Assembly: GCA_902783005.1 (NCBI GenBank)
Contig: CACZPI010000080.1
Coordinates: forward strand, 1-39,898
Source of the DNA: an uncultured Ruminococcus sp.
Lineage (GTDB): Bacteria > Bacillota > Clostridia > Oscillospirales > Ruminococcaceae
Reading direction: 5' to 3'
DNA: 39,898 bases
The notes under the pieces are model-generated. The model ran no database searches. It worked only from the letters and a program-made list of their open reading frames with translations, and was not told the origin of the DNA. Each line of letters opens with the position of its first letter. Positions within the stretch are counted from its first letter, which is position 1. A program made the translations under genes and the position numbers. Below are positions 12,131-35,636 of the stretch, in pieces.

Positions 12131-12139
12131 GAAAACTAC

Positions 12140-12168
12140 TTGACAAATCCGGTTTCATCGGTTATAAT
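12140..12168 (+). promoter_or_regulatory. Sigma-A promoter of the valS leader
   Basis: TTGACA at 12140-12145 and TATAAT at 12163-12168 with a 17-bp spacer, directly ahead of the T-box leader. Confidence 0.93.
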
Positions 12169-12180
12169 GATAGTACCAAA

Positions 12181-12592: not shown

Positions 12593-12628
12593 TGCCCCGG
12601 AAACACAATGAAAAGGAGTCTGAAACTT

Positions 12629-20114: not shown

Positions 20115-21878
20115 TCACTTGTACAGGGGTCCGTATGCCTCACAAGCGCGGTAATCTGCGGATTCGAGTTCCTTCGTGCCGAATGCACCCCATGCATGCG
20201 GACGGTAGATGTCGCAGTCAGGGATATTGTGCATGGCAACCGGAATGCGCAGCATGGAGGCCAGCGTGATGAGATCCTTGCCGATATGGCCGTAGGTGAT
20301 CGAACCGTGGTTAGCTCCCCAGTTGGCCATGACGGAATACACATCCTTGAAAGGCTCGCCGCCTGCTTCACCGGTGCGCGGCACAAACCATGTGGTCGGC
20401 CAGGTCGGGTCGGTACGCTTGTCGAGCTTCTCATGGATCTCATCCGGGAGAACGCATGTCCAGCCTTCAGCGATCTGAAGAACCGGCTGTGTACCGTTGA
20501 CGATGTTGACGCGCATCATGGTCATCGGCATCTCTGCCTGCGTGCGGAAGTGCGACGAGAAGCCGCCTCCGCGGAAGTACCCAAGGTCTGCCGGGCACCA
20601 GTCAACCGCATCGGTGATCGCCTCAATGTCCGCATCGGTCATCTCCCACCAGCGCTTCATAAGGTGGTTACCGTTCTCATCTACGGCGCACCCCGTGGCG
20701 TCAAGTGCAGCTGAGCCGGAATTGATCAGGTGAATGAATCCGCCCTTTGCCAGACCGGTCGGCTTGATGCCGGTCACACGCTCCACTGCCTCCGGAGACC
20801 AGTAGGTACGCACATCTGCAAAAAGGGAAGCACGATTCGAGAGTAGATGGCCGAAGAGCATGGATACGCCGTTAAGGGTGTCGTTCTCGGTGGCCAGCAG
20901 TGTCGGCTGCTTCTTTCCGTTCCAATTGAAGGTCGAATTGAGAATTGCTTCGGAGAAATCACCGTTCGGAAGCCAGTCAGTCCACTGACGCTGTCCCTGG
21001 AATCCGCCGAGGATCGCATTTCTGCCGCGGCTTTCCTCTAGCCAATCCATTTCCGCGAGCTTTTCATTGCCAAGCATGATGTCGCGGATGACAAGTGTCA
21101 TCTTGACAACGAATTCCCAGTTTTCCTCCTGATGCTCAGGCGGAAGGGGCTGCGCATTCTTGTCGAAGCCCATGGGACAATTGTCCATTGTCCATTTGTA
21201 GGCCTTTTCAAATTCGTCATGATCGTAAATTTCGAGATTGATCCGGCGCAGCACCTCGCTCATATCCACCCATTCTGCACGAATGCCGAGATACTTCTGG
21301 AAGAAATCACTGTTGCAGTACGATCCGCCGATGCCCATTGCAACACCGCCGATATTGACATAAGCCTTGTTTCTCATGCAGCCCACGGCAATCGCGCATC
21401 TTGCAAAACGCAGCAGCTTCTCGCGAACATCCTCCGGAACGCTGGTGTCATCTGCTTCCTGTACATCATGTCCGTAAATCGCGAATGCAGGCAGGCCTCT
21501 CTGCGTATGAGCAGCCATTGCTGCTGCCAGATAGACAGCGCCCGGGCGTTCGGTGCCGTTGAAGCCCCAGACTGCCTTGATCGTCAGGGGATTGAGGTCA
21601 ATGGTCTCGCTGCCGTAGCACCAGCAGGGAGTGACGGAAAGGGTCGCGCAGACATTCTGGGTCGAGAAATATTCCTCAGCCTTGTATGCTTCTGCGCCGC
21701 CGCCGATGGTGGAGGGTGCGATCACGCATTCCACATGTGTACCGTCCGGATAAAAGCACTCCGATTCGATGAGCTCCTTGGCGATTTTCGCCATGTTCAT
21801 CGTTTGTGCCTCCAGGCTTTCGCGGACGCCCTTCTGTCTGCCGTCAATAATGGGGCGGATACCGATTCTTGGATACAT
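20115..21878 (-). CDS. fucI: L-fucose isomerase
   Basis: A 587-residue cytoplasmic isomerase (E. coli FucI is of similar length) that converts L-fucose to L-fuculose and often accepts D-arabinose. It begins [23 protein letters not shown], the usual family start. [31 protein letters not shown] and [19 protein letters not shown] are characteristic, with acidic metal ligands near the middle of the chain. The start at 21878 has only a weak ribosome site (GAAGAAAAG), and translation may be coupled to the kinase gene that ends 7 bases upstream. It is the last gene of the fucA-kinase-fucI operon. Confidence 0.95.
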
Positions 21879-21885
21879 CTTTTCT

Positions 21886-23367
21886 TCACATCTCTTTCTT
21901 AAATATAGATTGATAATTATCATAGATATACGCGTTTCGCATTTCCGGCGCATATCGTCTGACCGTCACTGAACGTCCGATGATCGTTCTGGCTTCTCTG
22001 AGATCAGCGATCGTTCCGTCTGAGATCATCTGGACTGCTGCATTGCCGAGGGCTGTTGCTTCATCGGGTCCGGTATAAACCGGGATCCCGCAGACATTCG
22101 CCGTCAGCTGGCAAAGCAGTCCGTCCTTGACACCGCCGCCGAGCATGTAGATCTTTTCAAGTCTGCGGCCAGTGCAGGTTTCAATTTCATCAAGCGCCTC
22201 CCGGAATTTGCAGGCAAGGCTTTCGTAAATACACCGCAGTATATCGGCCATATCCGCAGGCTCCGGCTGTCCGCTTTCCAGGCACCATGCCCGGATCCGT
22301 CCCGGCATATCCCCGGGCGCTGAAAATGCAGGCGCATCCACGTCGATAAAGCGCTGTCCCGGTTCTGCCTGAGTTGCCATCTTTTCCAGGTCTGCATAGG
22401 TGTATTCCTGTCCCTTCCGGTGCAGTGCTCTTTTGGTTTCCTGGATCATCCAGAGTCCCGTGATATTTTTCAGGAATGTCACAGTACCGCCAAAACCGAC
22501 CTCATTGGAAACACAAAGTCCGGCGGATTGTTCGTTCATGACAGGGTGATCGAGCTCCGTTCCGAAAAGCGCCCAGGTACCGCAGCTGATAAATGCAAAT
22601 GCTACATCGTCCGTACAGGGTACTGCAACGGCTGCACTCTGTGTATCGTGACCGCAGACAGCAATGACGGGCATTTGCGGGATGCCGAGCTCCTTTGCAA
22701 TGCTCTCTGTCACAATGCCCTTGACCGTTCCTGTCTGAGCAAGGGCAGGGAAGAGGCGTTCCGGCAGTCCGAATGCGTGAACGACCTCCTCCGACCATCC
22801 GCCGTAATTCGGATCATAAAGCTGTGTCGTACCTGCAATGGTATGTTCCGTGGAAACATCACCGGTCAGGAAATATCCAAGCAGATCCGGCATCGGCAGA
22901 AAGGCCTGGGCAAGTTTGAGCAGCTCCGGCGTTTCCTGCTTCTGTACAAGCAGCTGAAATGCCGTGTTGATCTGCATGATCTGGTTTCCTGTGTGCTGAT
23001 AGAGCTCCTCCGGCCGGATCAGTGCTTCTGCCTGATCCAGGATGCCTTCGGTTCTTTTGTCCCGGTAATGGAAGGGGTTTCCGAGCAGGGAACCGTCCTT
23101 TCCGATCAATCCGTAATCTACACCCCAGGTGTCGATCCCGATGCTGTCAAAGCCGCCTGCGGCTTGTGCTTTTCGCAGACCTGTCTTGATCTCATGCAGC
23201 AGGCGCAGCACATCCCAGTACAGATGGCCGCCGCAGGAAACAGGCTCATTCGGAAAACGATGGATCTCGGTCAGACGGATCCTGTCATTTTCAAGACAAG
23301 CCAGAACAGCACGCCCGGAGGAAGCACCAAGATCAAAGGCAAGTACACGTTTTTTTCTGTTCATCAT
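21886..23367 (-). CDS. FGGY carbohydrate kinase, rhamnulokinase-like, probable L-fuculokinase
   Basis: A 493-residue sugar kinase. The phosphate-binding start is [13 protein letters not shown], followed by [30 protein letters not shown], and the C-terminal ATPase signature near [13 protein letters not shown] with the [11 protein letters not shown] block. The RFPNEP and GHLYWD segments are most like RhaB rhamnulokinases. Its place between fucA and fucI makes L-fuculose the likely substrate; many anaerobes use a RhaB-like kinase there. ATG 23367 overlaps the fucA stop (ATGA); ATG 23364 has slightly better spacing from GGAG. Whether it also phosphorylates rhamnulose cannot be told from sequence. 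Confidence 0.88.
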
Positions 23368-24062
23368 GTTTCTCCGGAATATTTCTTATAACCCGGATGC
23401 TTTCCGGTTACCTTGTACTGTGAGCGCATGTCGATCAGACGGTCGATATTCGCACGGGAAAGCTCCTGTGCTCCCCCGAGCAGATGCGCGGTCAGACTGA
23501 TCTTTGCAAAAAGCTCGAGCGTTTCCATCCGGTAGTAAGCTGTCAGTACATCGGCGCCGACCGTCAGAGCGCCGTGATTCTGCAGCAGCATCACATCATG
23601 CTCCTGCAGATAGGGCGTGATCGCCTCCGGCACCTCATCTGTGGACGGTGTACCGTAAGGGGTCACCGGAACGGAACCAATGGCAATCACGGTTTCGATC
23701 ATCGAGTAATCATCAAGCGGTTTGTTGGCAACTGCATATCCGGTTGCTGTCGGTGGGTGCGCGTGTACCACACCGCCGATATCCGGGCGTTCCCGGTAGC
23801 AGCGCAGGTGCATTTTGATCTCAGATGAGGGACGATAGCCTTCAAGTCCTTCGAGTACCTCGCCGTTTTCGTTGATGCGGACGAGCTTTTCCGGGGTAAT
23901 AAAGCTTTTGCTGATACCCGTAGGTGTGGCAAGAAAGGTGCCGTCCGGAAGGCGCACCGAGACATTCCCGTCATTCGCTGCGACCCAGCCGAGCTGCCAC
24001 ATCTTGTGGCAGACATCGCAAATTTCCTGTTTGATCTGCGTCAGATCAAGAGATTTATCCAT
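23364..24062 (-). CDS. fucA: L-fuculose-1-phosphate aldolase (class II)
   Basis: A 232-residue zinc aldolase that splits L-fuculose-1-phosphate to dihydroxyacetone phosphate and L-lactaldehyde. The motifs are NDGNVSVRLPDG, ATPTGISK, the catalytic Glu in PSSEIKMH, the zinc ligands of VVHAHPP, and the third zinc His in LLQNHGALT. ATG 24062 is preferred because GGAGG lies 7 bases before it; an open frame extends 11 codons upstream. It is the first gene of the fuc operon. No lactaldehyde reductase or propanediol pathway gene is in the window. A related ribulose-phosphate specificity is possible but less likely next to fucI. Confidence 0.92.
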   Translation of the reverse strand: MDKSLDLTQIKQEICDVCHKMWQLGWVAANDGNVSVRLPDGTFLATPTGISKSFITPEKLVRINENGEVLEGLEGYRPSSEIKMHLRCYRERPDIGGVVHAHPPTATGYAVANKPLDDYSMIETVIAIGSVPVTPYGTPSTDEVPEAITPYLQEHDVMLLQNHGALTVGADVLTAYYRMETLELFAKISLTAHLLGGAQELSRANIDRLIDMRSQYKVTGKHPGYKKYSGET

Positions 24063-24077
24063 AGCATAACCTCCATC

Positions 24078-24097
24078 GTGTGCAGTCTGCTGCACAC
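24078..24097 (-). promoter_or_regulatory. Perfect hairpin in the fuc operon leader
   Basis: GTGTGCAG (24078-24085) and CTGCACAC (24090-24097) form an 8-bp stem with a 4-base loop, immediately upstream of the fucA ribosome site at about 24070-24074. It could be an mRNA structure or an operator. Confidence 0.55.
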
Positions 24098-24173: not shown

Positions 24174-24202
24174 ATTATACATGATTTTGTGAATTTTGTC
24201 CA
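24174..24202 (-). promoter_or_regulatory. Promoter of the fuc operon
   Basis: On the minus strand, TGGACA (24202-24197) and TATAAT (24179-24174) with a 17-bp spacer. The leader to fucA is about 105 bases. Confidence 0.82.
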
Positions 24203-24231
24203 GTCATTTTTCAGAAAATCATGAAGTTTTT

Positions 24232-24250
24232 GAAACAAAGCGTTTGTTTC
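24232..24250. promoter_or_regulatory. 19-bp perfect palindrome between fuc and rpe promoters
   Basis: GAAACAAA-GCG-TTTGTTTC is fully symmetric about C24241. It lies 30 bp upstream of the fuc -35 and about 43 bp upstream of the rpe -35, a suitable place for a regulator of either or both. It does not fit the standard cre consensus. Confidence 0.55.
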
Positions 24251-24292
24251 GGAAGCCAGGAAAAGAATCCAAAAAATTTCCGCTGCATCCTA

Positions 24293-24321
24293 TTGACGGC
24301 GGACGGATTTTCCGCTATAAT
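24293..24321 (+). promoter_or_regulatory. Sigma-A promoter of the rpe operon
   Basis: TTGACG at 24293-24298 and TATAAT at 24316-24321 with a 17-bp spacer. Confidence 0.88.
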
Positions 24322-24357
24322 AGAATAGGTAAACAATGTTTGAAAGGAGCCAAAACA

Positions 24358-25017
24358 TTGAATCGAGCTGTTTCTGCTTCCATATTGAGCGCGGATTTCC
24401 TGCATCTGGAGGATGAGGTACGCCGGTTGGAGGAAGCAAATGTAGATATGCTGCATTTTGATGTCATGGATGGATGCTTCGTACCGAATATTTCGTTCGG
24501 GATCCCTGTTCTGCAGGCGATCCGTAAAACAACCGGGATGTTTCTGGATGTGCACCTGATGATCCGTGATCCTTATGCATATATAGAAGAATTTGTCAAA
24601 GCAGGTGCGGATATGATCACCTTCCACCTGGAGAGTGACAGTGATCCTCTCCGGACTCTGGAGCGGATCCATTCCTTTGGCTGCAAGGCCGGGCTTGCAT
24701 TGAAGCCCGCAACACCGGCCGGGGCTGCACAGCCCTTCATGGAGCATCTGGACAATCTGCTGGTCATGACGGTCGAGCCTGGCTTCGGCGGGCAGAGCTA
24801 CCTGCATGACATGAACGATAAAATCCAAAAAGCTGCTGAAATGCGCGGATCTCGCCCTTGCTATGTGCAGGTGGACGGCGGCATCAATGCAGAAACGGTA
24901 CAGGAAGCAATTGCAGCCGGTGCCGATCTGCTCGTAGCAGGCAGCTACCTGTTCCGGCATCCGGATCTTGCTGAAGGCGTCAATTCGCTGCGCGGAAGCA
25001 GGGAGGCTCTGAAGTGA
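24358..25017 (+). CDS. rpe: Ribulose-phosphate 3-epimerase, TTG start
   Basis: A 219-residue TIM-barrel enzyme of the pentose phosphate pathway that interconverts ribulose-5-phosphate and xylulose-5-phosphate. The family motifs are SASILSADFLHL at the N-terminus, MLHFDVMDGCFVPN (metal and catalytic Asp), DVHLMI, MTVEPGFGGQ and the catalytic VDGGIN near residue 175, ending in the VAGSYLF phosphate grip. The start is TTG at 24358: AAAGGAG at 24343-24349 is 8 bases before it and the usual protein start follows at once. The ATG at 24336 is out of frame, and in-frame upstream codons would add a long tail that lies over the promoter. It overlaps the Rnf D-like gene. Confidence 0.95.
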   Translation: MNRAVSASILSADFLHLEDEVRRLEEANVDMLHFDVMDGCFVPNISFGIPVLQAIRKTTGMFLDVHLMIRDPYAYIEEFVKAGADMITFHLESDSDPLRTLERIHSFGCKAGLALKPATPAGAAQPFMEHLDNLLVMTVEPGFGGQSYLHDMNDKIQKAAEMRGSRPCYVQVDGGINAETVQEAIAAGADLLVAGSYLFRHPDLAEGVNSLRGSREALK

Positions 25018-25949
25018 ACCGCCTTCAGGACGCACAGCCGCTCAGAAAGCCGGAATACTGGCTTGTGCTGTGTGCAGTTTCATTGATCGCTGTCTGCTAT
25101 TACGGGCTGCGTGCCGCTGCGGTTTGTGGACTTGCGGCAGTGACTGCGGTGCTGACAGATCTGATCTGCCTGTTCCTGCGCGGAAGATCCTACCGGCTTG
25201 TTGACCTTACGAACATCGGATCGGCTCTGATCCTCGTATTGATGTTCCCGGCTACGATCCCCTATTCCATTGTGATCCTCAGCACGGTTTTCGCAGTTGC
25301 TGTCGGAACGCATGTATTCGGTTACCGGAAGGATCATCTGTTCCCTCCGGCTGCGGTCGGTTATCTGTTTGCGCTGCTCAACTGGAGACAGGAGGTGCTG
25401 CAATTCCCGCATCCAGGCGCCCGCCTGATGTTCTTCGGGAATGATGTCGCAGTCAGTCCGTCATTCAGCGCCGCTGTAAATGAATCCGGCAGGATAACTG
25501 ATTCCGTCATGGATGTGATGCTGGGAACAGTCAGCTCTCCGATGGGAACAGGCTGTCTCCTGATTCTGGTTGTCGGAATCCTGGTGCTGCTCTTCCGCCG
25601 TCAGCTATCCCCCTGGGCCATCCTTGGGTATCTGGTTGGCATGATGCTGATGTCTGCATTCTGCCTCCAGCCGATTGTTCCGCTGCTGGTGACAAATATG
25701 ATCCTGTTCTCTGTACTGTTCCTGGTCGCGGATCCGTCCGTACTGCCCGGGTATTCGCTTGCAAGCTATTTCGGAACCATGGCGACCGGCATTCTGACGG
25801 TTTATCTGATCGTACAGTTTCATCTGGAATATGCACCCGTTGTGGCTGTAATGCTGACAGCACCGCTCTGGCGCGGTCTGGATACGCTGGAAGCGAGAAT
25901 CAATGCGCATCTGGATGAAGCAGATGAGGAGGTGCAGGAGGATGCGTGA
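25014..25949 (+). CDS. RnfD/NqrB-like membrane subunit lacking the FMN-attachment motif
   Basis: A 311-residue polytopic protein similar to RnfD (NQR2/RnfD/RnfE family). Matching blocks are the helix VFAVAVGTHVFGYRKDHLFPPAAVGYLFAL and DVMLGTVSSPMGTG, which aligns with the LG-IPGSIGETS region of RnfD. It also has the C-terminal LFLVADPSV block. In RnfD a Thr in an SGAT/SQAT motif carries covalent FMN; here the equivalent stretch reads SPSFSAAVNESG and has no such Thr. The second SGAT-like segment is also changed (VTNMILFSV). The start is GTG 25014 with GGGAGG at 25001-25006, overlapping the rpe stop. It is the first of three Rnf-like genes. It probably folds as RnfD but cannot carry the usual flavin. 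Confidence 0.82.
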   Translation: MNRLQDAQPLRKPEYWLVLCAVSLIAVCYYGLRAAAVCGLAAVTAVLTDLICLFLRGRSYRLVDLTNIGSALILVLMFPATIPYSIVILSTVFAVAVGTHVFGYRKDHLFPPAAVGYLFALLNWRQEVLQFPHPGARLMFFGNDVAVSPSFSAAVNESGRITDSVMDVMLGTVSSPMGTGCLLILVVGILVLLFRRQLSPWAILGYLVGMMLMSAFCLQPIVPLLVTNMILFSVLFLVADPSVLPGYSLASYFGTMATGILTVYLIVQFHLEYAPVVAVMLTAPLWRGLDTLEARINAHLDEADEEVQEDA

Positions 25950-26583
25950 TAAAAAGCACAGTCTGTTAGAAGGACTGACACGAAAGAACGCTGTTCTGAG
26001 TGAAGGCATGGTCATCGCACCGATCGTTGTGCTCTGTGACACGCTGCCGAAGAGCGCGATGCTGTCTCTTGCGTTCTCTCTGCTGACCTTTCTGGCAGTT
26101 GCCATCGGCTCTTATTATCCCAGAAAGCTGCCGTATGCAGTCAGAGTCATTCTGTATGCATTGACTGCTGCATTGCTGTACATTCCTGTGGCATTGTTCT
26201 GCGAATTTATCAGCCCGGATGTATATGCCTCTCTGGGCACCATGTATGTACCGGGAATTGAAGAGGCAGCGTCAGCGGCTGTCATGTATCTGCCGCTGCT
26301 TGCAGTTAATTCTTTTATTGTACTGCATTCCGAGCTGTATTTTTACAGGATGCAGCGCGGTCCGATGCTGATTTCGCTCCTGTGTCACTGCCTTGGATTT
26401 TCGCTGACGGCATGTCTGATCGGATTCCTGCGTGAAATTCTGGCTTATGGCAGCGTTGCGGGGCATGTTGTGGATATGCCGCTTGTCATGCATGCGCTTG
26501 CTACACCATGGGGCGGATTTATCCTGCTGGGCATTCTGTGTGCGCTGCATCGTGTTCTGTTTCTGAAAAAGGAGGAAGCATAA
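25942..26583 (+). CDS. RnfE/NqrD-like membrane subunit lacking both Fe-S cysteines
   Basis: A 213-residue protein of six predicted helices, similar to RnfE/NqrD. The alignment is anchored by LTRKNAVLSEGMVIAPIVV (KN-SALVQLLGLCPLLA in RnfE), MYLPLLAVNSFIVL (IPLIVTNCIVVG), FLREILAYGSV and PWGGFILLG. The two membrane cysteines that hold the [2Fe-2S] centre are replaced: LGLCP becomes MVIAP (Ala) and TNCI becomes VNSF (Ser). AGGAGGTG at 25927-25934 is 7 bases before ATG 25942, which lies inside the end of the D-like gene. The family assignment is firm at fold level; the loss of redox function is inferred. Confidence 0.82.
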   Translation: MRDKKHSLLEGLTRKNAVLSEGMVIAPIVVLCDTLPKSAMLSLAFSLLTFLAVAIGSYYPRKLPYAVRVILYALTAALLYIPVALFCEFISPDVYASLGTMYVPGIEEAASAAVMYLPLLAVNSFIVLHSELYFYRMQRGPMLISLLCHCLGFSLTACLIGFLREILAYGSVAGHVVDMPLVMHALATPWGGFILLGILCALHRVLFLKKEEA

Positions 26584-27228
26584 ATGTGGCTTCTGTCAGC
26601 GATCATTTCGCTGTTTACAACGAATCTGATTTTTACGCGTGCGCTGGGCACCAGCACCGTGCTGGCTGCATCCCGGAATCGTTCCAATTTGCCGGTGCTT
26701 GCATTGCTGATGACAGTTTTTTCTTCTCTGGGCTGCCTGCTGACCTGCATCGTATTCCGCCTGTTCAAGCTGCAGTCTCTGGTGGAATACCCGTACAGTC
26801 TCGGGCTGCCGCTGGTGTATACCGTCATTATTTCGATCATATATTGTCTGGTACTGGTGCTATTGTTTTTTGTGATGCCGGATCGTTTTTCCGGGTATAA
26901 AAAATATGTACACCTTTCCGTCTTCAATTGTGCGGTCATGGGAACTCTCTATCTGGCCTTTGAGCCCATGGAGCTTCTGGAGAATGCCTGGTTCTACAGC
27001 GACCGTTTTGTATTTGGATCGGTGTATGCAGATCGCTTTACCGTCGCCGGTGCATTGCTGTTCGGATTGCAGGAAGGACTTGGCTTTTTGCTGGCTGCGC
27101 TGATCCTTTCCGCTGTCCGGGAGAGACTTTATGATCCCGAGGTGCCGGCAGTATTCCGCGGATTCCCGGCTGCAATGATTTATATCGGACTGATCTCCAT
27201 GGCGATTTACGCCATTACTGTCAATTGA
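26584..27228 (+). CDS. RnfA/NqrE-like membrane subunit with one of two Fe-S cysteines
   Basis: A 214-residue protein of six predicted helices, similar to RnfA/NqrE. The C-terminal part is close to the family: GLQEGLGFLLAALILSAVRERL, then PEVPAVFRGFPAAMIYIGLISMA. The second iron-sulfur Cys is kept in VFNCAVMG (TTNCAVLG in RnfA). The first is lost: LGLCPFMGVSKK corresponds to LGTSTVLAASRN, with Ser in place of Cys. AGGAGG at 26570-26575 lies in the end of the E-like gene, and the ATG follows its TAA directly. The A and E subunits normally form a pseudo-symmetric pair around one [2Fe-2S] centre; with three of four ligands missing such a centre is unlikely. Confidence 0.83.
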   Translation: MWLLSAIISLFTTNLIFTRALGTSTVLAASRNRSNLPVLALLMTVFSSLGCLLTCIVFRLFKLQSLVEYPYSLGLPLVYTVIISIIYCLVLVLLFFVMPDRFSGYKKYVHLSVFNCAVMGTLYLAFEPMELLENAWFYSDRFVFGSVYADRFTVAGALLFGLQEGLGFLLAALILSAVRERLYDPEVPAVFRGFPAAMIYIGLISMAIYAITVN

Positions 27229-27278: not shown

Positions 27279-28430
27279 ATGAGGATCAAACCTAAAGGCC
27301 GCAGGATCTACCGGCAGAAAACCCGGTTTGAAAAGCTGCATGCCTTTCTGAGTAATACCGGAGCCGTGATATCCACCCTTGTCATCATAGCTGTACTCTT
27401 TTTTGTCGGCTACAGTGCCGGGCGTCCCGTTCTTCAATTTCTGGAGGAACGAAAACAGCCGCAGCCTACCGAACCCTTATTCACGGCTGAGGATCTGCCG
27501 GAGGAAACAGAGACTTCTGCCGAAATCATGACAGAGACAGAAGCACCTACGGATCCGGAACCCGTGACCGAAACAGAAGCGGTTCCGGTCAAAGCCGGGC
27601 TCCAGGGGTATCTGCTGCGGACCGATGCGCTGCTTTCCGAGGAATCGCTGCAGGCTGCGATCGCAGAGGTTCCTGCCGGAACGACGCATGTCCTGGTTCC
27701 GCTGAAGGTGAAGGGCGGCGGCATCTGGTATGCGTCCAGGTTGGAGGACGCTGCAAGGAGCGGTGCAGTCCAGGCGGTGCTCCCGCCGGAGACAATCAGC
27801 AGTATTGTGGCATCGTGCGGTGCAAAGCCGGTTGCTGTCATCAATACGCTGGAGGATCATATCTATCCGGTCAGCTTCTATGATGCAGGGTACCAGATCG
27901 CCGGTTCCAGCGACCGCTGGCTGGATGCAGCTCCGGATAACGGCGGAAAGCCGTGGCTTTCGCCTTTTTCCTCGTTAACAAAGGATTATCTCGGGAATCT
28001 GACCGCCGAGCTTGCCTCTGCCGGATTTGAAGGCATTGTCTGTGAAGGACTGGTATTCCCGGATTTCAAACGCACAGATCTGGAGAAGCTGGATACACGC
28101 TGCGGCGCTGATGATCGTTACACGGCTCTTGCAGATGTGGTTACGGCCATGCAGAATGCAGCACCGGATGTCACGTTCTACATCGGAATTGACGGAATGG
28201 ATGTCCTGCGCAATATCACGGATGCCGTGCAGGCTTCGGAACAATTGGAGATTTCCGCTGTGATCCTGTCTGTCACAGCAGCTACACAGGGCAATTCAGA
28301 TCTGCTGCGCAGCGCTGTAACGACGCATCCGGCAGTACTGGAATGGATCGATGTACCGGTTCCGGCCGGTGAAGGCAATTTTGTATACGCACCAATCAGT
28401 CAGTCTACTGAAACACAAAGCGGGGATTAA
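27279..28430 (+). CDS. Membrane-anchored DUF4015-like (putative glycoside hydrolase) protein
   Basis: A 383-residue protein with a basic N-terminus, one membrane helix at about residues 29-49, an acidic Thr/Glu/Pro-rich linker (to about 105) and an extracytoplasmic domain. That domain resembles the DUF4015 TIM-barrel family: WLSPFSSLTKDYLGNLTAEL followed by GFEGIVCEGLVFPDF matches the family's NPYS...YN..LA and GFDEIQFDYIRFP segments. The family's Asp-Tyr-Arg pattern is changed to CEGLVFP, so catalysis is doubtful. The start is uncertain. ATG 27279 has GAGGGG 12 bases upstream; TTG 27225 overlaps the RnfA-like stop but has no ribosome site. It is last in the rpe-Rnf-like operon. Confidence 0.68.
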   Translation: MRIKPKGRRIYRQKTRFEKLHAFLSNTGAVISTLVIIAVLFFVGYSAGRPVLQFLEERKQPQPTEPLFTAEDLPEETETSAEIMTETEAPTDPEPVTETEAVPVKAGLQGYLLRTDALLSEESLQAAIAEVPAGTTHVLVPLKVKGGGIWYASRLEDAARSGAVQAVLPPETISSIVASCGAKPVAVINTLEDHIYPVSFYDAGYQIAGSSDRWLDAAPDNGGKPWLSPFSSLTKDYLGNLTAELASAGFEGIVCEGLVFPDFKRTDLEKLDTRCGADDRYTALADVVTAMQNAAPDVTFYIGIDGMDVLRNITDAVQASEQLEISAVILSVTAATQGNSDLLRSAVTTHPAVLEWIDVPVPAGEGNFVYAPISQSTETQSGD

Positions 28431-28460
28431 CCCCGAATATTCTAAGAAGGAGTGAAAATC

Positions 28461-29420
28461 ATGTCTGAAAAGTTTACCATTTCACTGAAAAAAATCATTG
28501 ACGAATTCAAGCTTGAGGTCATCTACATGCCCAAATCTCCGGAAGAGCTTCTGATCGACGAGACGGACGTCAATCGTCCCGGTTTGCAGCTGATGGGCTT
28601 CTACGAGTACTTCAACCCGGAGCGGATCCAGATCATCGGCAAGATGGAGTTTGCCTATCTGTCTACAATTGATGAGAAAATGCGCCGGGAACGTCTTGAA
28701 CTGTTGATCTCCCAGAAGCTGCCAGCTCTCATTATCACCCGTGAGCTGCCGTATTTTTCCGAAATGCTTGAGCTTGCCCAAAAGTACGGCATGCCGCTGC
28801 TGCGGAGCAAGGAAAGCACTTCCAACTTTATGTCGGGTCTGATTGCATTTTTGAATCTGAATCTCGCACCCCGTATTACCAGACACGGTGTTCTCATTGA
28901 AATCTACGGCGAAGGTGTCTTCATTACCGGTGAATCCGGTGTCGGTAAGAGCGAGACTGCGATCGAGCTGGTCAAGCGCGGACATCGTCTTGTCGCGGAT
29001 GATGCTGTTGAGATCCGCAAGGTCTCCAATATCAGTCTGGTCGGATCCTCCCCGGATAATATCCGCCACTTCCTGGAGCTGCGCGGTATCGGTATTATCA
29101 ATGCCCGCCGGCTGTTCGGTATGGGTGCCGTCAAGGTGACCGAAAAGATCGATCTGCTTGTTGAGATGGAGCTTTGGAATCCGGAAAAGATCTATGACCG
29201 TATGGGCGTGGATACACAGTATGCTTCCATTCTCGGTGTTAAGATCCCGAGCCTTACGATCCCGGTCAAGCCCGGCAGAAATCTGGCTGTCATTCTGGAA
29301 GTTGCTGCTATGAATAACCGCCAGAAGAAGATGGGCTACAATGCTGCTACCGAGCTGCTCGACCGACTGGGTATGGATATGGAAGGTACCGAATCCGTCA
29401 AGGACTATGACGCATTCTGA
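28461..29420 (+). CDS. hprK: HPr kinase/phosphorylase
   Basis: A 319-residue bifunctional enzyme that phosphorylates and dephosphorylates HPr on Ser46, the switch of carbon catabolite control in Firmicutes. The N-terminal domain covers about residues 1-130. The Walker A motif GESGVGKS is at 157-164, followed by the catalytic DDAVEI and the family signature ELRGIGIINARRLFG. The C-terminal K.M...PVKPGRN region is typical. ATG 28461 is used because AAGGAG (28447-28452) is 8 bases before it; GTG 28452 would overlap the ribosome site. It starts the conserved order hprK-murB-rapZ-whiA-dnaE and may be regulated with it. No clear promoter or terminator separates it from the upstream gene. Confidence 0.97.
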   Translation: MSEKFTISLKKIIDEFKLEVIYMPKSPEELLIDETDVNRPGLQLMGFYEYFNPERIQIIGKMEFAYLSTIDEKMRRERLELLISQKLPALIITRELPYFSEMLELAQKYGMPLLRSKESTSNFMSGLIAFLNLNLAPRITRHGVLIEIYGEGVFITGESGVGKSETAIELVKRGHRLVADDAVEIRKVSNISLVGSSPDNIRHFLELRGIGIINARRLFGMGAVKVTEKIDLLVEMELWNPEKIYDRMGVDTQYASILGVKIPSLTIPVKPGRNLAVILEVAAMNNRQKKMGYNAATELLDRLGMDMEGTESVKDYDAF

Positions 29421-29449
29421 TGAATGCATCGCACGATAAGGGGAATGCT

Positions 29450-30391
29450 ATGAGAGAAATGCTGCTGGAAATCTGCGAACGCTACAAAATGAAACTGCTC
29501 GAACAGGTACCGCTGTCAGAGCATACCTCCTTTCATATCGGCGGTCATGCAGATTACTGGATCGAGGTCAACGACAAAGAGGGTTTATCTTGCCTTCTGA
29601 AGCTGTTTTCGGAAACGAGCACCTCGTTTTTCGTGATGGGACGCGGCACAAATATCCTTGCTGCTGATGACGGATTCCGCGGCGTGATCCTGCATCTCGG
29701 GGAGCACTTTGCAGTAAATGAATTCCGGGAGCAGAATGCCGGATCGAAACCCACACTTTGTCTTGGCGCAGCTTCGACCCTTGTAAAGGCTGCCAAGATA
29801 GCTGAGGAACATTCTCTGACCGGTATGGAGGGCTTGTCCGGCATTCCGGGTTCTGTCGGCGGCGCACTGTATATGAATGCCGGTGCCTACGGCTATGAAA
29901 TGCGTCAGATCGTGACGGAATGTGAGTATATGACCTATGACGGAGAGCTGCACACTGCTGCCGCAGATGCACTGGGGCTTGCTTACCGGCACAGCCGTTT
30001 CATGGAGGAGCCGGCGGTCATTCTGTCAGTTACGGTGGAGCTTGAACGTGGCGAAAAATCCGAAATTACAGCCAAAATGCAGGACTTTCTGAAACGCCGC
30101 AATGACAAGCAGCCGTTGAATTTCCCGAGTGCCGGCAGCACCTTCAAGCGTCCCGGAGAGAATGCCTATGCTTCGAGGCTGATCGACGAATGCGGGCTGA
30201 AGGGTCTGACCTTCGGCGGCGCACAGGTCAGTGAAAAGCATGCCGGTTTCGTCATCAACCGATCCGGCGCGACCTGCGAAGATGTCACGGCACTTTGCAG
30301 ACAGGTTCGTGAAAAAGTAAAATCTGAAACCGGGTATGTACTGGAGCTTGAACCGGTACTGCTTGGTGATGTAAAATGGGAGAGTGAATGA
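29450..30391 (+). CDS. murB: UDP-N-acetylenolpyruvoylglucosamine reductase
   Basis: A 313-residue FAD enzyme that uses NADPH to make UDP-N-acetylmuramate for peptidoglycan. The features are SFHIGGHADYWIEV, the FAD-binding MGRGTNILA and LSGIPGSVGGALYMNAGAYG blocks, catalytic Ser in FPSAGSTFKRP, and SEKHAGFVIN near the end with the final catalytic Glu in LELEPVLLG. The short middle region fits the Gram-positive (type II) form. ATG 29450 has AAGGGGA at 29438-29444; an ATG at 29420 overlapping the hprK stop has no ribosome site. It is separated from rapZ by 3 bases. Confidence 0.96.
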   Translation: MREMLLEICERYKMKLLEQVPLSEHTSFHIGGHADYWIEVNDKEGLSCLLKLFSETSTSFFVMGRGTNILAADDGFRGVILHLGEHFAVNEFREQNAGSKPTLCLGAASTLVKAAKIAEEHSLTGMEGLSGIPGSVGGALYMNAGAYGYEMRQIVTECEYMTYDGELHTAAADALGLAYRHSRFMEEPAVILSVTVELERGEKSEITAKMQDFLKRRNDKQPLNFPSAGSTFKRPGENAYASRLIDECGLKGLTFGGAQVSEKHAGFVINRSGATCEDVTALCRQVREKVKSETGYVLELEPVLLGDVKWESE

Positions 30392-30394
30392 TCC

Positions 30395-31252
30395 ATGCAG
30401 CTGGTAATCGTGACAGGCATGTCCGGTTCCGGTAAATCCACCATCATGAAGGTGATGGAGGATATCGGGTTTTATTGTATTGACAATCTGCCGCCGGAGC
30501 TGATTCCGGAATTCATCGAAATATCCAAGCGTTCCGGGATCACCAATATTGCGATTTCCGCGGATATACGCACCGGCGGAATGTTTTCGGAGATCTATAA
30601 TGTCATCCATGATCTGCGACATTCTTCGGCAGATCAGCCGAAGGTCATCTTTACAGAGGCCTCTGATGAGGTTCTCATCAAGCGCTATAAGGAAACACGC
30701 CGCAAGCATCCTCTTGCAGAAAAGGCAAATTCTCTGCGGGAAGCCATCCGTCTGGAGCGCATTCAGCTTGAGCAGCTCCGGACAAAGGCGGATTATTACC
30801 TGGAAACCTCGCATATGAGCACCTCGCAGCTTGGAACCGAGATCCGGAACCTGTTTCTGGAGAACAATTCCGATTCCATGCTTGTGAAGGTGATGTCGTT
30901 CGGATATAAGTATGGTGTATCCACAGAGTCGGATCTTGTATTTGATGTTCGCTGCCTGCCGAATCCCTATTATGTACCGGAGCTGCGGGAACACACCGGA
31001 TGCGAAAGCTGCATCCGTGATTATGTGATGCAGTCGGAGCAGTCCAGGATCCTCTTCTCAAAGCTGTCCGACCTGCTGCAATATCTGCTGCCCCTGTATG
31101 TGAAGGAAGGGAAAAGCCAGCTGGTCATTGCTTTCGGCTGTACCGGCGGCAAGCATCGCTCCGTCACATTTGCAGAGCTGATCGGAGATGCGCTGCTTGA
31201 AAGCGGGTATCGTGTCCATAAACTGCACAGAGATATTACACGGGATCACTGA
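30395..31252 (+). CDS. rapZ: RapZ/YvcJ family nucleotide-binding protein
   Basis: A 285-residue P-loop protein. The Walker A motif GMSGSGKS is at residues 8-15, followed by GFYCIDNLPPELIPEF and ADIRT in the N-terminal half. The C-terminal RapZ domain has FGYKYG, DVRCLPNP, and IAFGCTGGKHRSVTFAE. In E. coli RapZ guides RNase E to small RNAs and binds glucosamine-6-phosphate; in Firmicutes YvcJ is a GTPase-like protein tied to envelope metabolism and competence. The neighbours murB and whiA are standard. GGGAGAG lies just upstream in the murB end. Confidence 0.96.
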   Translation: MQLVIVTGMSGSGKSTIMKVMEDIGFYCIDNLPPELIPEFIEISKRSGITNIAISADIRTGGMFSEIYNVIHDLRHSSADQPKVIFTEASDEVLIKRYKETRRKHPLAEKANSLREAIRLERIQLEQLRTKADYYLETSHMSTSQLGTEIRNLFLENNSDSMLVKVMSFGYKYGVSTESDLVFDVRCLPNPYYVPELREHTGCESCIRDYVMQSEQSRILFSKLSDLLQYLLPLYVKEGKSQLVIAFGCTGGKHRSVTFAELIGDALLESGYRVHKLHRDITRDH

Positions 31253-31282
31253 TCCCCAAGGAACAGAAATCAGGTGAACGTC

Positions 31283-32200
31283 ATGTCCTTTTCCCATAAT
31301 GTCCGCGAATGTATCCGGAGTACCATTACCGATCACGACCGGCGGTTTGCCTGTTTGTACGGAATGCTGCTGTATGGGCGGTCTGTAACACGCGAGGAGA
31401 TCTGTCTGAAAAGCAGCAGTGAAGTCTTCCGCAGCATGTTTCCAGTGCTGATGAAGACAGTATTCGGCGCTTCTGTGCCGCTGACAATGGAGAGCTGTCC
31501 GCGCAAGGACGGAAGTACGCTGTATATTTACCGCATTGAAGGTGAAGAATCCGTGACAACGATTCGCCATGCATTTCATATTCATGAGGACAGACGGATC
31601 GATATGCGCAATCTGCCGACCAACAGCATGGGTGCCTTTCTTGGTGGGGTCTTTCTGACATGCGGTACGGTGACGGATCCGGAGAAGGAATACCATCTGG
31701 AATTTTCAGCTCCCACAGAGACGCTATGCTCAGATCTCTGCGAGGTGCTTCTGACTGTCGGGGTGCATCCAAGTGTCACCATACGCCGCTACGGGTGGTC
31801 TGCCTATCTGAAGTCCTGCGATGAAATCGGCGATCTTCTGACATTTATCGGCGCCCAGCGCTGTACGCTGGATCTGATTGACGTACAGATCGATAAGGAT
31901 GTCAAGAACCATATCAACCGTGTCAATAACTGTGACATGGCCAATATTGATAAGGCCATTTCTGCTGCTGCCAGACAATGCGGCGATATTGAGGAAATCA
32001 TTCGTAACGGCGGAATGAAGGATCTGACACCGGAGCTGCGCGAGCTTGCAGAGCTCCGCATGGAGAATCCGCATCTGAGCCTGGCACAGATCTCTGAAAT
32101 GCTGTCAAAGCCCATCGGCCGCTCCGGCGTCAACCATCGTTTCCGTAAGCTGGCAGCGATTGCGGAGGCTTACAGAAGGGGGCAGGTTCATGACGAATGA
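31283..32200 (+). CDS. whiA: DNA-binding protein WhiA
   Basis: A 305-residue protein with an N-terminal LAGLIDADG-homing-endonuclease-like domain (MGAFLGGVFLTCGTVTDPEKEYHLEF around residues 120-145) and a C-terminal helix-turn-helix. That C-terminal part contains NCDMANIDKAISAA, LAELRMENPHLSLAQISEML and GRSGVNHRFRKL. WhiA is a chromosome-associated factor that influences cell division and lipid metabolism in Firmicutes. ATG 31283 is chosen with AGGTGA at 31272-31277; GTG 31274 would overlap that site. Its end overlaps the dnaE start by 11 bases. Confidence 0.96.
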   Translation: MSFSHNVRECIRSTITDHDRRFACLYGMLLYGRSVTREEICLKSSSEVFRSMFPVLMKTVFGASVPLTMESCPRKDGSTLYIYRIEGEESVTTIRHAFHIHEDRRIDMRNLPTNSMGAFLGGVFLTCGTVTDPEKEYHLEFSAPTETLCSDLCEVLLTVGVHPSVTIRRYGWSAYLKSCDEIGDLLTFIGAQRCTLDLIDVQIDKDVKNHINRVNNCDMANIDKAISAAARQCGDIEEIIRNGGMKDLTPELRELAELRMENPHLSLAQISEMLSKPIGRSGVNHRFRKLAAIAEAYRRGQVHDE

Positions 32201-35200
32201 CGCATTTGTACACCTGCATGTGCATAGTGAATACAGTCTGCTCGACGGTGCCTGCCGTCTGGAGGAGCTCCCGGAACAGGTAAAAGCACTGGGACAAACG
32301 GCGGTGGCAGTGACCGATCACGGGAATCTGTACGCCGCCGTTGCATTTTATCAGAAGGCACAAAAGGCAGGCATCAAGCCCATTATCGGATGCGAAGTCT
32401 ATGTTGCTCAGCGAACGAGGCATGACCGTGATGCTCAGCTCGACGGAAAGAGCTATCATCTGGTTTTGTTATGCGAATCCAATGAAGGCTACCGGAATCT
32501 TGTCAAGCTGGTTTCTCTGGCCAATATGGAGGGGTTCTACAAAAAGCCCCGTGTCGATCTGGAGCTTCTGCAGCGCTACCATAAAGGGCTGATCTGTCTG
32601 TCCGCCTGCATCGCAGGAGAGATCCCGCGCTGTCTGCTTGACGGCAACTATGACGGAGCACGGGCAGCCGCCATGCGCTATCGTGATATTTTCGGGAAAG
32701 ACAATTTCTTTATTGAGATCCAGGATCACAATATTCCCGAAGAAAAACAGGTCATGCCTGGTCTCCTGCGCCTTTCCAGAGAATGCGGCATTCCGCTTGT
32801 TGCCACCAATGATGCGCATTATCTGCATCAATCCGATGCGCAGATGCAGCATATCCTGCTTTGTATCCAGACAAACAAAACCATTCACGAAAAAACAGGC
32901 ATGGGCTTTTCCACGCCTGAATTCTATCTCAAATCCACGGAAGAAATGGAGCAGTTATTCCATTCGATCCCGGAAGCCTTGACCAATACACGCCGGATCG
33001 CTGACCGATGCTGTGTGGATTTTCACTTTGGAGAACTGAAGCTGCCGCAGTTTCGGCAGGACGGCATCACTGACAACAGGCAGTACCTCCGGCAGCTTTG
33101 CACGAAGGGCATGTACAAGCGCTACGGTGCCACGCCCTCCGCAGAGGTGACAGCGCGGCTGGAGCATGAGCTGGATGTGATCGAACAAATGGGATTTGTC
33201 GATTATTTCCTGATCGTCTGGGATTTTATCCGCTATGCACGCAGTCAGGATATTCCGGTGGGTCCCGGTCGAGGATCCGGCGCAGGAAGCCTCTGTGCCT
33301 ACTGCATCGGCATCACGCAGATCGATCCGATTGCCGGTAATCTGCTGTTTGAACGCTTTCTGAATGTAGAACGCGGTAATATGCCTGATTTTGATGTGGA
33401 TTTCTGCATTGAGGGACGGGAACGTGTCAAGGAATATGTCATCCGCAGATATGGTGAGGATCATGTGGCGGGGATTATTGCCTTCGATACCCTGAAAGCA
33501 CGGGCTGCGATCAAGGATGTCGGCCGCGTTCTGGAAATTCCGCTTCAACAGGTCAACCAGACAACCAAAGCCTTTGAATTTGACGAGAGCATAGCGCATG
33601 CGATCGAGAAGAACCAGACGATCCGCAGCCTGTATACCTCCGACATGAAAATCCATGAGCTGCTTGATACCGCTGCACGCATTGAAGGCATGCCGCGGCA
33701 TATCTCCAAGCATGCAGCCGGTGTGGTCATCACGCCTGCTGCTGTCAGTGATTATGTCCCGCTGCAGCGTGACGAAGAAGCAGCACTTACCCAGTATACC
33801 ATGAAGGAGCTGGATCTGCTCGGATTGCTGAAGATTGATTTTCTGGGTCTGCGCAACCTGACCATTATCCGCGATGCGGAACGGGCGATCCAGCGGCATA
33901 CCCCCGGCTTTTCCGTGCAGAAGATCCCGACAGATGATCCGCAGGTCTATGCCATGCTTGCAGCAGGGGATACCTCGGGCGTATTTCAGCTTGAAAGTAA
34001 CGGGATGCGCAGCTTTATGATGCGTCTGAAGCCCGAAAACATGGAGGATCTGATCGCAGCGCTGGCCTTATACCGACCCGGCCCGATGGATGCGATACCA
34101 ACATATATCAAAAACCGGCACACCCCCGGCGCTGTTACCTACCTGCATCCGGCACTCGAAGAGATTCTGAATGTCACCTACGGCTGCATTGTCTACCAGG
34201 AACAGGTCATGCAGATCTGCCGGAAGCTGGCCGGATATTCCTACGGACAGGCCGATCTGGTCAGACGTGCCATGTCCAAGAAAAAACCGGAGCTCATGGA
34301 GCAGGAGCGGCAGCGTTTCCTGTATGGCTCCGGCAAGGATGACGGCTGCATCGGCGCACTGGCCAACGGCATTCCGGAGGATACTGCGAGAGCGGTTTTT
34401 GACCAGATGGAACGGTTCGCATCGTATGCCTTCAATAAATCCCATGCTGCTGCCTATGGTCTGGTATCCTATCAGACAGCGTATCTGAAATATCATTATT
34501 TCGGTGAGTATATGGCAGCGCTGATGACGAATGTGATCGGTGACACCGGCAAGCTGCTGGCGTATATAGAGGAATGCCGGAATCATGGCATCAAGGTATC
34601 CATTCCGGATGTCAATACCGGAGAATGGGGATTTTCCTATCATGACGGACAGCTTGTATTCGGTCTGCTTGCCATCAAGGGTGTTGGAAAGGGACTGATC
34701 GACCGGCTGACGCTTGAAAGACGCAGCGGAGGGCAATTCCGGGGATTTGTCGATTTTTGCAGGAGAATGCTGCCGCATGGCCTGAATCGCCGTGTGCTGG
34801 AACCCCTGATCGAATCCGGCGCACTCGACTGCCTCGATTACAACCGCCGACAAATGCTGCTGCATTACGAAGAGGTTCTGGATGCTGTCAGCGACCACAG
34901 CGCGGGCGCAATTGAAGGACAGATGAGTCTGTTCGGAGAAGCCGAGGAAGCCAACGGTGATCTGGTTCTCCCACCTGCGGAGCCGTTCTCTCTGATCGCC
35001 AAGCTCGGTATGGAGAAAAAGGTGACAGGAATGTATATTTCCGGTCATCCTTTGGATGCATTTTTCTATTTGCAGTCGCTTCTTCATGTGATGCCGGTAT
35101 CCCAGGTGCTCACAAAAGGGGAAGGGGAGAAGGTCACGATTCTTGCCATGCTGCAGGAATGCAAACGTATCACAACCAAAAACGGCGGTGATATGGCTTT

Positions 35201-35636
35201 CCTGAAGCTGGAAGATACTTCTGCCGCGATTGAAGCGGTCGTTTTTCCGAAGCTGTACAGCATTTCCGCATCCAGACTGAACCGGGAAACGGTTGTCCTG
35301 ATCTCAGGAACGATTTCCCTGCGTGATGACAGCATCAGTATTTTGTGTGATTCGATTCTGGCTGAGGCGGATTTTCCGAGGATGCTGCGCGAACACATGC
35401 TATGTATCAAATCCGATGCCTCTTCTGCCGGCATGGAGCTGCTCCGGAAAACCTCAGAGATCTGCCGGAAGTTTCCCGGGGAAACAGAGGTTGTATTCTA
35501 TCTGACAGACCGCAGGCAGTATATTTACCCGAAACAGCCGATCTTTACGGAGGTCGGAGACACTTTGTTTTCTGAACTCGGACAGGTTATTTCCCCGGAA
35601 TCCATGGGCTGCATTCCAAAAATACGGAAAAGATGA
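32190..35636 (+). CDS. dnaE: DNA polymerase III alpha subunit, DnaE type
   Basis: A 1148-residue replicative polymerase of the DnaE family. The N-terminal PHP domain begins FVHLHVHSEYSLLDGA and keeps the VTDHGN metal site. The catalytic aspartates are in PDFDVDF (D400, D402, D404). GPGRGSGAGSLCAYCIG, AGVVITP, and the FNKSHAAAYGL block mark palm and fingers. A helix-hairpin-helix region (IKGVGKGLIDRL) and an OB-fold (about residues 1000-1080) follow. No exonuclease insertion is present, so it is not PolC. AAGGGGG (32176-32182) is 7 bases before ATG 32190, inside the end of whiA. Confidence 0.97.
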   Translation: MTNDAFVHLHVHSEYSLLDGACRLEELPEQVKALGQTAVAVTDHGNLYAAVAFYQKAQKAGIKPIIGCEVYVAQRTRHDRDAQLDGKSYHLVLLCESNEGYRNLVKLVSLANMEGFYKKPRVDLELLQRYHKGLICLSACIAGEIPRCLLDGNYDGARAAAMRYRDIFGKDNFFIEIQDHNIPEEKQVMPGLLRLSRECGIPLVATNDAHYLHQSDAQMQHILLCIQTNKTIHEKTGMGFSTPEFYLKSTEEMEQLFHSIPEALTNTRRIADRCCVDFHFGELKLPQFRQDGITDNRQYLRQLCTKGMYKRYGATPSAEVTARLEHELDVIEQMGFVDYFLIVWDFIRYARSQDIPVGPGRGSGAGSLCAYCIGITQIDPIAGNLLFERFLNVERGNMPDFDVDFCIEGRERVKEYVIRRYGEDHVAGIIAFDTLKARAAIKDVGRVLEIPLQQVNQTTKAFEFDESIAHAIEKNQTIRSLYTSDMKIHELLDTAARIEGMPRHISKHAAGVVITPAAVSDYVPLQRDEEAALTQYTMKELDLLGLLKIDFLGLRNLTIIRDAERAIQRHTPGFSVQKIPTDDPQVYAMLAAGDTSGVFQLESNGMRSFMMRLKPENMEDLIAALALYRPGPMDAIPTYIKNRHTPGAVTYLHPALEEILNVTYGCIVYQEQVMQICRKLAGYSYGQADLVRRAMSKKKPELMEQERQRFLYGSGKDDGCIGALANGIPEDTARAVFDQMERFASYAFNKSHAAAYGLVSYQTAYLKYHYFGEYMAALMTNVIGDTGKLLAYIEECRNHGIKVSIPDVNTGEWGFSYHDGQLVFGLLAIKGVGKGLIDRLTLERRSGGQFRGFVDFCRRMLPHGLNRRVLEPLIESGALDCLDYNRRQMLLHYEEVLDAVSDHSAGAIEGQMSLFGEAEEANGDLVLPPAEPFSLIAKLGMEKKVTGMYISGHPLDAFFYLQSLLHVMPVSQVLTKGEGEKVTILAMLQECKRITTKNGGDMAFLKLEDTSAAIEAVVFPKLYSISASRLNRETVVLISGTISLRDDSISILCDSILAEADFPRMLREHMLCIKSDASSAGMELLRKTSEICRKFPGETEVVFYLTDRRQYIYPKQPIFTEVGDTLFSELGQVISPESMGCIPKIRKR

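Follow-up and report, generated by a model that had tools for sequence, protein, structure and literature searches.

The D-E-A locus

The stretch of DNA analysed here, called the window, is a contig of 39,898 nucleotides (CACZPI010000080.1 of assembly GCA_902783005.1, C80 in our numbering) from an uncultured Ruminococcus sp., whose genome comprises 2.87 Mb in 180 contigs and is 88% complete. Between the gene rpe and a gene that we call c4 it carries three consecutive genes, named D, E and A after the membrane subunits RnfD, RnfE and RnfA of the Rnf complex. The sequences of these genes and of their relatives indicate that, in the lineage of the window, D-E-A is very probably an Rnf core that is redox-dead and yet functional. 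The genes are arranged as follows:

24196..25017, + strand: rpe, ribulose-phosphate 3-epimerase, open reading frame (ORF) as listed (PF00834, 2.2e-70; TIGR01163 over cut-off)
25014..25949, + strand: D, RnfD-like membrane subunit, 311 residues (Pfam PF03116, NQR2_RnfD_RnfE, 3.6e-30, over cut-off)
25942..26583, + strand: E, RnfE-like subunit (Pfam PF02508, Rnf-Nqr, 9.2e-19, over cut-off)
26584..27228, + strand: A, RnfA-like subunit (Pfam PF02508, Rnf-Nqr, 5.1e-19, over cut-off)
27279..28430, + strand: c4, membrane-anchored TIM-barrel protein of DUF4015 type (DUF4015, 8.5e-6, just below cut-off)

D, E and A adjoin as three overlapping or abutting genes on the + strand, and the GTG start of D overlaps the stop of rpe. 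The start of E was taken as the ATG at 25942, the listed ORF opening at 25903; the ORF of c4 is listed from a TTG at 27225, and the Pfam match of rpe begins only near 24379. The NCBIfam models for rnfD, rnfE and rnfA remain far under their cut-offs (61/207, 32/213 and 45/229 bits). Profiles built from the proteins of the window's taxonomic family match solved Rnf structures, D with 7zc6_D (RnfD, expectation value 6.2e-51), E with 7zc6_E (RnfE, 2.7e-31) and A with 9eri_A (RnfA, 7.3e-34). By Pfam, by these profiles and by the modelled fold of D, the three proteins belong to the Rnf/Nqr homologous superfamily. A preliminary description of the window had claimed consecutive homologues of RnfD, RnfE and RnfA, which the Pfam and structure-profile matches and the coordinates confirm.

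The other parts of an Rnf operon are not seen at this place. RnfC is absent from the window locus, no RnfG gene lies between D and E, whose ORFs overlap, and no FMN_bind domain was found among the adjacent genes scanned by Pfam. RnfB was not seen at the locus either, no search for rnfB having been made elsewhere in the genome. The window D protein, moreover, has no N-terminal RnfC-docking motif.

Loss of the cofactor sites

In the Rnf complex of C. tetanomorphum, the cofactor ligands are Cys25 and Cys113 of RnfA, Cys26 and Cys109 of RnfE, and Thr153 of RnfD, and the flavin mononucleotide (FMN) is lined by RnfD Arg130, Thr153, Glu185, Gly237 and Ser284 (PMC9588780). These positions were mapped by alignments anchored on solved structures. 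A set from the family and genus of the window (78 D, 77 E and 75 A) was compared with 18 canonical sequences, and a set from named organisms (78 D, 79 E and 80 A, from the best 80 of 179 loci) overlaps it; collapsing copies with identical last 80 residues left a combined set of 145 D, 145 E and 144 A unique relatives, to which the counts below refer unless another set is given.

In the window, E has Ala26 in place of Cys26 and Ser124 in place of Cys109, whereas A has Ser24 at the first position and still a cysteine, Cys116, at the second. At positions 153, 130, 185, 237 and 284 the window D presents Ser, Tyr, Thr, Met and Val, the first of them (Ser148) outside any SGAT context. The relatives agree with this: cysteine is found in 0/145 at E26 (with two gaps), 0/145 at E109 and 0/144 at A25. 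Each of the five FMN contacts is kept in 18/18 canonical RnfD, in contrast to 0/145 relatives for Arg130, 4/145 for Thr153, 0/145 for Glu185, 5/145 for Gly237 and 0/145 for Ser284, so that 137 of the 145 keep none, seven keep one and one keeps two. The pocket has been refilled, Arg130 by Tyr or Phe, Gly237 mostly by Met (95/145) and Ser284 mostly by Val. The losses are targeted at cofactor contacts: over 156 uncollapsed rows, the 72 columns that are invariant in canonical RnfD have a mean retention of 0.33, and of 100,000 random draws of five such columns 14 showed retention as poor as that of the FMN contacts.

Judged by these residues, three of the four ligands of the membrane [2Fe-2S] cluster and the FMN pocket of RnfD are gone, and the window module has neither the four-cysteine [2Fe-2S] set nor the covalent-FMN site of a functional Rnf. 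The preliminary description had stated that both iron-sulfur cysteines of E are replaced, that the first cysteine of A is lost (the only one it named there), and that D lacks the SGAT threonine. All of this stands, and the count of relatives that it proposed finds the same losses to be common to about 145 unique relatives. As a separate observation, 51 of 78 module D proteins have new cysteines at each of the alignment columns 289 and 377; the pair might form a metal site or a disulphide, and the window has neither cysteine.

Retained features and a putative transport path

Asp248 of RnfD is strictly conserved in Rnf and has been proposed as a Na+ site beside riboflavin (PMC9588780). The window D keeps this acidic site as Asp240, and the relatives have Asp in 124/145 and Glu in 13/145, that is, an acidic residue in 137/145. 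In the relatives' alignment the gate positions of D are mostly still hydrophobic. The AlphaFold model of D (predicted local distance difference test, 88.1; predicted template modelling score, 0.87) has as its best match in the PDB the RnfD chain of 9eri (template modelling score, 0.79), followed by other Rnf/Nqr chains, then by urea transporters (probability up to 0.87) and, further down, by AmtB. The topology of RnfD has itself been likened to that of urea and ammonium transporters (PMC9588780). We regard the likeness to urea transporters as weak because its expectation value is 0.05, and it is one of fold alone, D having no Pfam match to a urea or ammonium transporter family.

The median ratio of nonsynonymous to synonymous substitution rates (dN/dS), from 37-40 close pairs per gene that are not independent of one another, is 0.086 for D, 0.094 for E, 0.093 for A, 0.096 for c4 and 0.095 for rpe. 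Purifying selection acts on D-E-A as strongly as on rpe. The preliminary description had proposed that the fold is kept under selection and that the core is reused without electron transfer, as a transporter, channel or scaffold. The first point is borne out by the ratio of about 0.09, the same as for rpe, and the reuse without electron transfer is supported by this selection together with the losses common to the relatives.

The acidic site, the hydrophobic gate and the weak urea-transporter likeness would favour a transport path. Our reading, to which we give a probability of roughly 45%, is that the core may now be a redox-independent ion channel or transporter, its electron wiring removed in place and the gated path of D kept. 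D, E and A would descend from the Rnf ferredoxin:NAD+ pump and assemble as they do in Rnf; D would consist of two inverted five-helix halves, with a gated path past hydrophobic layers and Asp240; and the complex would move Na+, H+ or a small solute without redox gating. For the part of this reading that makes D conducting or transporting, we consider the chances evenly balanced, and the same even odds are given to the full statement, that a redox-free D-E-A complex may move an ion or small solute through D.

Distribution among genomes

A PF03116 match is present in 280/297 genomes of the window's family, many of them with two or more. When 124 genomes (123 genera) were searched with the window D, 96 had a best match stronger than 1e-15. 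Neighbourhoods were fetched for 60 of them, taken from the higher-ranking entries, 12 high-scoring ones with only short loci being omitted; the model score of D assigns all 60 family loci to the module type. Among the named loci (best 80 of 179) are those of Ruminococcus flavefaciens FD-1, MC2020, ND2009 and ATCC 19208. Among the matches listed for a class-wide sample of 391 genomes, those of at least 271 bits belong only to the window's family (4 genomes) and to a second family of the order (5). The score listed next is 222, and the 11 matches examined from there down are all canonical by their model scores. Extending the sample to 295 genomes from across the order added further families and blurred the score boundary between module and canonical D: 20 loci picked near it by score proved to be 10 canonical by residues and 10 not. 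A clean score gap between the two types therefore holds within the family and among the listed class matches and fails order-wide. Many of the relatives' genomes are fragmented and incomplete. The search across related genomes suggested in the preliminary description thus finds that the module reaches far beyond the window.

Neighbouring genes and a possible scaffold

The module follows rpe at 59/60 family loci, often with a reverse-strand gene in between that we take to be MecA-like. The downstream gene c4 is present in 48/60 family loci and follows A in 17/17 loci of the window's genus; rpe, D, E, A and c4 are all present in 75/80 named loci. Relatives of c4 match DUF4015 at 2.4e-35 and 4.5e-40, compared with 8.5e-6 in the window. 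Its model has a long N-terminal helix (34-76), a linker and a high-confidence barrel, the best match of which is PDB 4s1a (Cthe_0052), with glycoside hydrolases as many of the next ones. At the position aligned with what we presume to be an FDY-type Asp motif, 65 c4 sequences have Asp in 20 cases, Glu in 16 and varied residues in the rest. Many c4 members may lack glycosidase activity because this position is variable.

This neighbourhood raises an alternative to a transporting D, namely that the complex is a scaffold or membrane partner that holds an envelope protein such as c4 without transporting anything. The regular position of c4 behind A (also in most of the 80 named loci) agrees with it, as do the gene overlaps of the window, which suggest coupled translation, and the layout of the c4 model, whose long helix and soluble barrel recall RnfG, a subunit absent from the module. 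Within the genus, however, c4 is found in 33/38 genomes, and 14 of these have no D-E-A; in the 10 of these 14 loci that were fetched, rpe abuts c4 in 10/10, and homologues of hprK, murB and rapZ are present as well. We regard c4 as independent of D-E-A because it persists in genomes that lack the module. Of the 12/60 family loci without c4, seven extend more than 4 kb beyond A, and c4 also follows a canonical rnf operon at a locus of another family of the order (L303, described below). The idea of an obligate complex of D-E-A with c4 is weakened by the c4 genes without D-E-A and by those seven long loci, and a scaffold seems to us unlikely, although it is the best placed of the alternatives.

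Further genes of the window lie on either side. On the - strand, 20115-24095 holds sugar catabolism genes: an L-fucose isomerase passes its cut-off, and a kinase resembling rhamnulokinase or fuculokinase and a protein like fuculose-phosphate aldolase remain below theirs. On the + strand downstream of c4, 28452-35636 holds hprK, a gene taken for murB, rapZ, whiA and dnaE.

Canonical Rnf in the same genomes

Another possibility is that D-E-A is a partner or regulator of a true Rnf, a pseudo-core binding or competing for the canonical C, G or B subunits. Co-occurrence argues for it: a second D match is listed in 77/96 family genomes that have a module-type D. Among 38 genomes of the genus, D-E-A is present in 19 and canonical rnfD in 13, with 12 genomes having both, seven D-E-A only, one canonical rnfD only and 18 neither. 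D-E-A is found in all 12 genus genomes that have canonical rnfD together with an assembled c4, c4 not being found in the lone canonical-only genome (G305), and canonical rnfD occurs in 0/14 of the genomes with c4 and no D-E-A. Against this, the ten D-E-A-minus loci that were placed in the genus tree form one clade, so the loss of the module together with rnf may be a single event, and we do not claim a co-dependence of the two in the genus. Moreover, seven genus genomes, mostly incomplete, have D-E-A without a canonical rnfD or an rnfC over cut-off, and in other genomes of the family a canonical-type D match stands alone (G063, 99% complete; G005, 100%). This partnership appears improbable, marginally more so than the scaffold.

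The window genome is one of those with D-E-A only. At its 88% completeness it gave no further PF02508 or PF03116 match; no rnfC passed the TIGR01945 cut-off there or in the six other D-E-A-only genus genomes, whereas five control genomes with canonical rnf did give one; and its two FMN_bind proteins have no RnfG match in NCBIfam. We have therefore discarded the idea that dispersed rnf genes complete the set, and the check for a complete rnf operon in the same genome, proposed at the outset, ends with no additional match to PF02508 or PF03116, no rnfC over cut-off and no RnfG match. The two FMN_bind proteins lie elsewhere. On contig C115 (L314, 4269-6789), an ApbE-like gene stands beside a membrane protein of 471 residues with the FMN_bind domain at its end, a separate flavin system. 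On contig C31 (L316, 377-2665) there is a small FMN_bind lipoprotein, weakly PplA-like, whose neighbours, from ORF reading, are an ABC transporter ATPase and a small membrane protein. One D-E-A-only genome (G314, 100% complete, 5% contaminated) gave no ApbE match; this was not used as an argument, since ApbE may be unassembled there, an FMN_bind protein with an SGAT motif being present.

The C' subunit of relatives and the origin of the module

In 25/60 family loci, and beside 25/78 D of the wider set, D is preceded by a gene that we call C'. It encodes a relative of RnfC (TIGR01945 at 5.6e-45 for locus L084, from profile position 114 onward), and the N-terminal barrel domain is lacking in the C' proteins scanned. 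Seven of the cysteine columns of its two 4Fe-4S motifs are kept in 26/26 sequences and the eighth in 25/26, one of the 26 being a second, off-strand copy in L078. The Gly-rich loop pattern for FMN and reduced nicotinamide adenine dinucleotide (NADH) is found in 0/26 C' as against 12/17 canonical RnfC, and in most C' a D-E-x-D-G loop replaces it. The second match of L078 to the C model (11810-12940) lies upstream of rpe on the opposite strand and is without the D-E-x-D-G loop.

RnfC of the Rnf complex encloses the N-terminal arm of RnfD (PMC9588780). A corresponding docking motif, P-[HYF]-[ILVM]-[RKQ], is present in D in 23/25 cases next to C' and in 0/53 without C' in the family set (Fisher 9e-18, ignoring relatedness). 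With relatedness taken into account on a tree of E and A, there is one independent C' pair on supported branches and three on the best tree; at the order level the pattern is found in 4/11 loci with C' and 0/4 without. A contact between C' and D through the N-terminal arm is likely on these sequences and falls short of proof because the relatedness-corrected and order-level support is thin.

C' appears to have been lost in the window's lineage, and the trees differ on the number of losses. In the family tree, 51 C'-lacking loci form one clade and L144 stands apart; in a larger tree they fall into groups of 39, 16, 3 and 1, and on the E-A tree no fewer than three C' changes are required, for which reason a single loss is not claimed. 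The trees are from FastTree or short IQ-TREE runs on alignments made for this analysis, and re-rooting may have left some support values attached to a branch that is not theirs.

Three loci from other families of the order bear on the origin of the module. L303 has canonical C, D, E and A with all cofactor residues, an ORF bearing a TGAT motif that stands between D and E and is presumed to be G, an RnfB by Pfam, and then c4. L298 has rpe, one ORF of 248 residues and then canonical C, D, G, E and A, its G having FMN_bind by Pfam and a TGAS motif. L288 is intermediate, with a full-length C over the rnfC cut-off that is without the Gly-rich loop, an altered D-E-A and c4. In a tree rooted on a canonical row, in which L288 counts as canonical by model score, no row of canonical E type falls inside the module clade. 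Because other families have a complete canonical rnf operon before DUF4015 and a canonical rnf after rpe, we think it probable that the module arose where it stands, through decay of an rnf operon. The steps would be from C-D-G-E-A-B to C'-D-E-A and then to D-E-A, a direction that we infer from gene content; in the module loci no RnfG or RnfB was seen with the models built for this analysis and a few Pfam scans.

The C' branch suggests yet another alternative, a reduced electron carrier in which electrons would pass from cytosolic ferredoxin through the C' clusters to a non-covalent flavin in D, without the iron of E-A. The kept cluster cysteines and the docking motif beside C' are consistent with it, and a two-subunit Nqr/Rnf-like system that lacks the D flavinylation site has been proposed to use non-covalent flavin (PMC10979944). 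On the other side, the lineage of the window has no C', the FMN pocket has been refilled, 43/145 relatives still have Asn124 of the riboflavin site, and neither RnfB nor RnfG is at the locus; we consider this carrier doubtful, a little more so than the partnership with a true Rnf. A decaying pseudo-operon without function is very improbable: the module is lost in one genus clade and parts of it elsewhere, but its dN/dS is low and equal to that of rpe, and rpe-D-E-A-c4 is complete in most of the named loci.

Points that weigh against a redox-independent transporter

Returning to the proposed redox-independent channel or transporter, several observations do not fit it easily. The acidic and gate residues that are retained could be structural, and transport by D-E-A, as to both substrate and activity, is putative only. 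Cys113 of A is kept in 123/144 relatives, its partners gone (codon 26929-26931 in the window), which would not be expected of a cluster site set free. The position of RnfD Thr153 is Ser in 118/145; ApbE is able to use Ser or Thr in other substrates (PMC10979944), the window genome has ApbE, and this Ser could in principle accept FMN. The partial retention of Asn124 also speaks against a uniform picture. The 4Fe-4S cysteines of C' are intact, and the C' branch may, to judge from them, still carry or sense electrons. The 10 non-canonical order-level loci, whose rows are divergent and less certainly aligned, keep several of the residues in question: E Cys26 in two (L291, L292), Thr153 in three (L285, L287, L302), Glu185 in L288, Gly237 in L287, Ser284 in L291 and A Cys113 in two (L285, L302), with the position of Asp248 acidic in only seven. 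Finally, the module is dispensable, since 14 genus genomes that keep c4 have no D-E-A.

Relation to known systems and significance

Compared with Rnf (7zc6 of C. tetanomorphum, 9eri of A. woodii), the module has the same order of D, E and A and the same fold of D, and its C' branch shares an RnfC homologue, in part with the docking motif of D. It differs in that no RnfG or RnfB is seen at the locus, in the lost [2Fe-2S] ligands and FMN pocket, and in a C subunit that is without the Gly-rich loop or, as in the window, absent. The NqrB, NqrD and NqrE subunits of Na+-NQR are homologous to D, E and A, but Na+-NQR keeps its redox cofactors and gained NqrF, and the module has neither; NQR has been proposed to have arisen through duplication of an rnf operon and loss of rnfB (PMC4014512, PMC12174285). 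The two-subunit Nqr/Rnf-like systems, found mainly in Actinobacteria and the Candidate Phyla Radiation, also lack the flavinylation threonine of D (PMC8238504, PMC10979944). They have two subunits only, an RnfD-like domain fused to an NAD-binding domain (PF00175) and, as its partner, an RnfG-like flavoprotein with FMN_bind; the module has neither the flavoprotein nor the NAD-binding domain, whereas it has E and A; the window D matches PF03116 only, with no PF00175 fusion. In Faecalibacterium duncaniae A2-165, an abundant human gut bacterium, an 'rnfDEA' set has been reported beside a separate rnfCDGEAB and assigned, as a second operon, to the energy-conserving NADH:ferredoxin oxidoreductase (PMC10781979). 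With the same three genes, it is probably the same module. No description of such a module was found in the literature covered, most subscription papers lying outside that coverage.

In Rnf and Nqr, the mechanism that couples electron flow to the movement of ions is still an open question. The module offers natural proteins for testing whether the membrane core conducts alone and, if our reading is true, it would be a natural separation of the transport half of the pump from its electron half. The membrane core seems to have been repurposed for a job other than electron transfer in many Ruminococcus-type gut bacteria, and family models still label the module genes as RnfD, RnfE and RnfA. If the reading holds, Rnf energy metabolism would be overestimated wherever it is inferred from rnfD, rnfE and rnfA in gut and rumen genomes.

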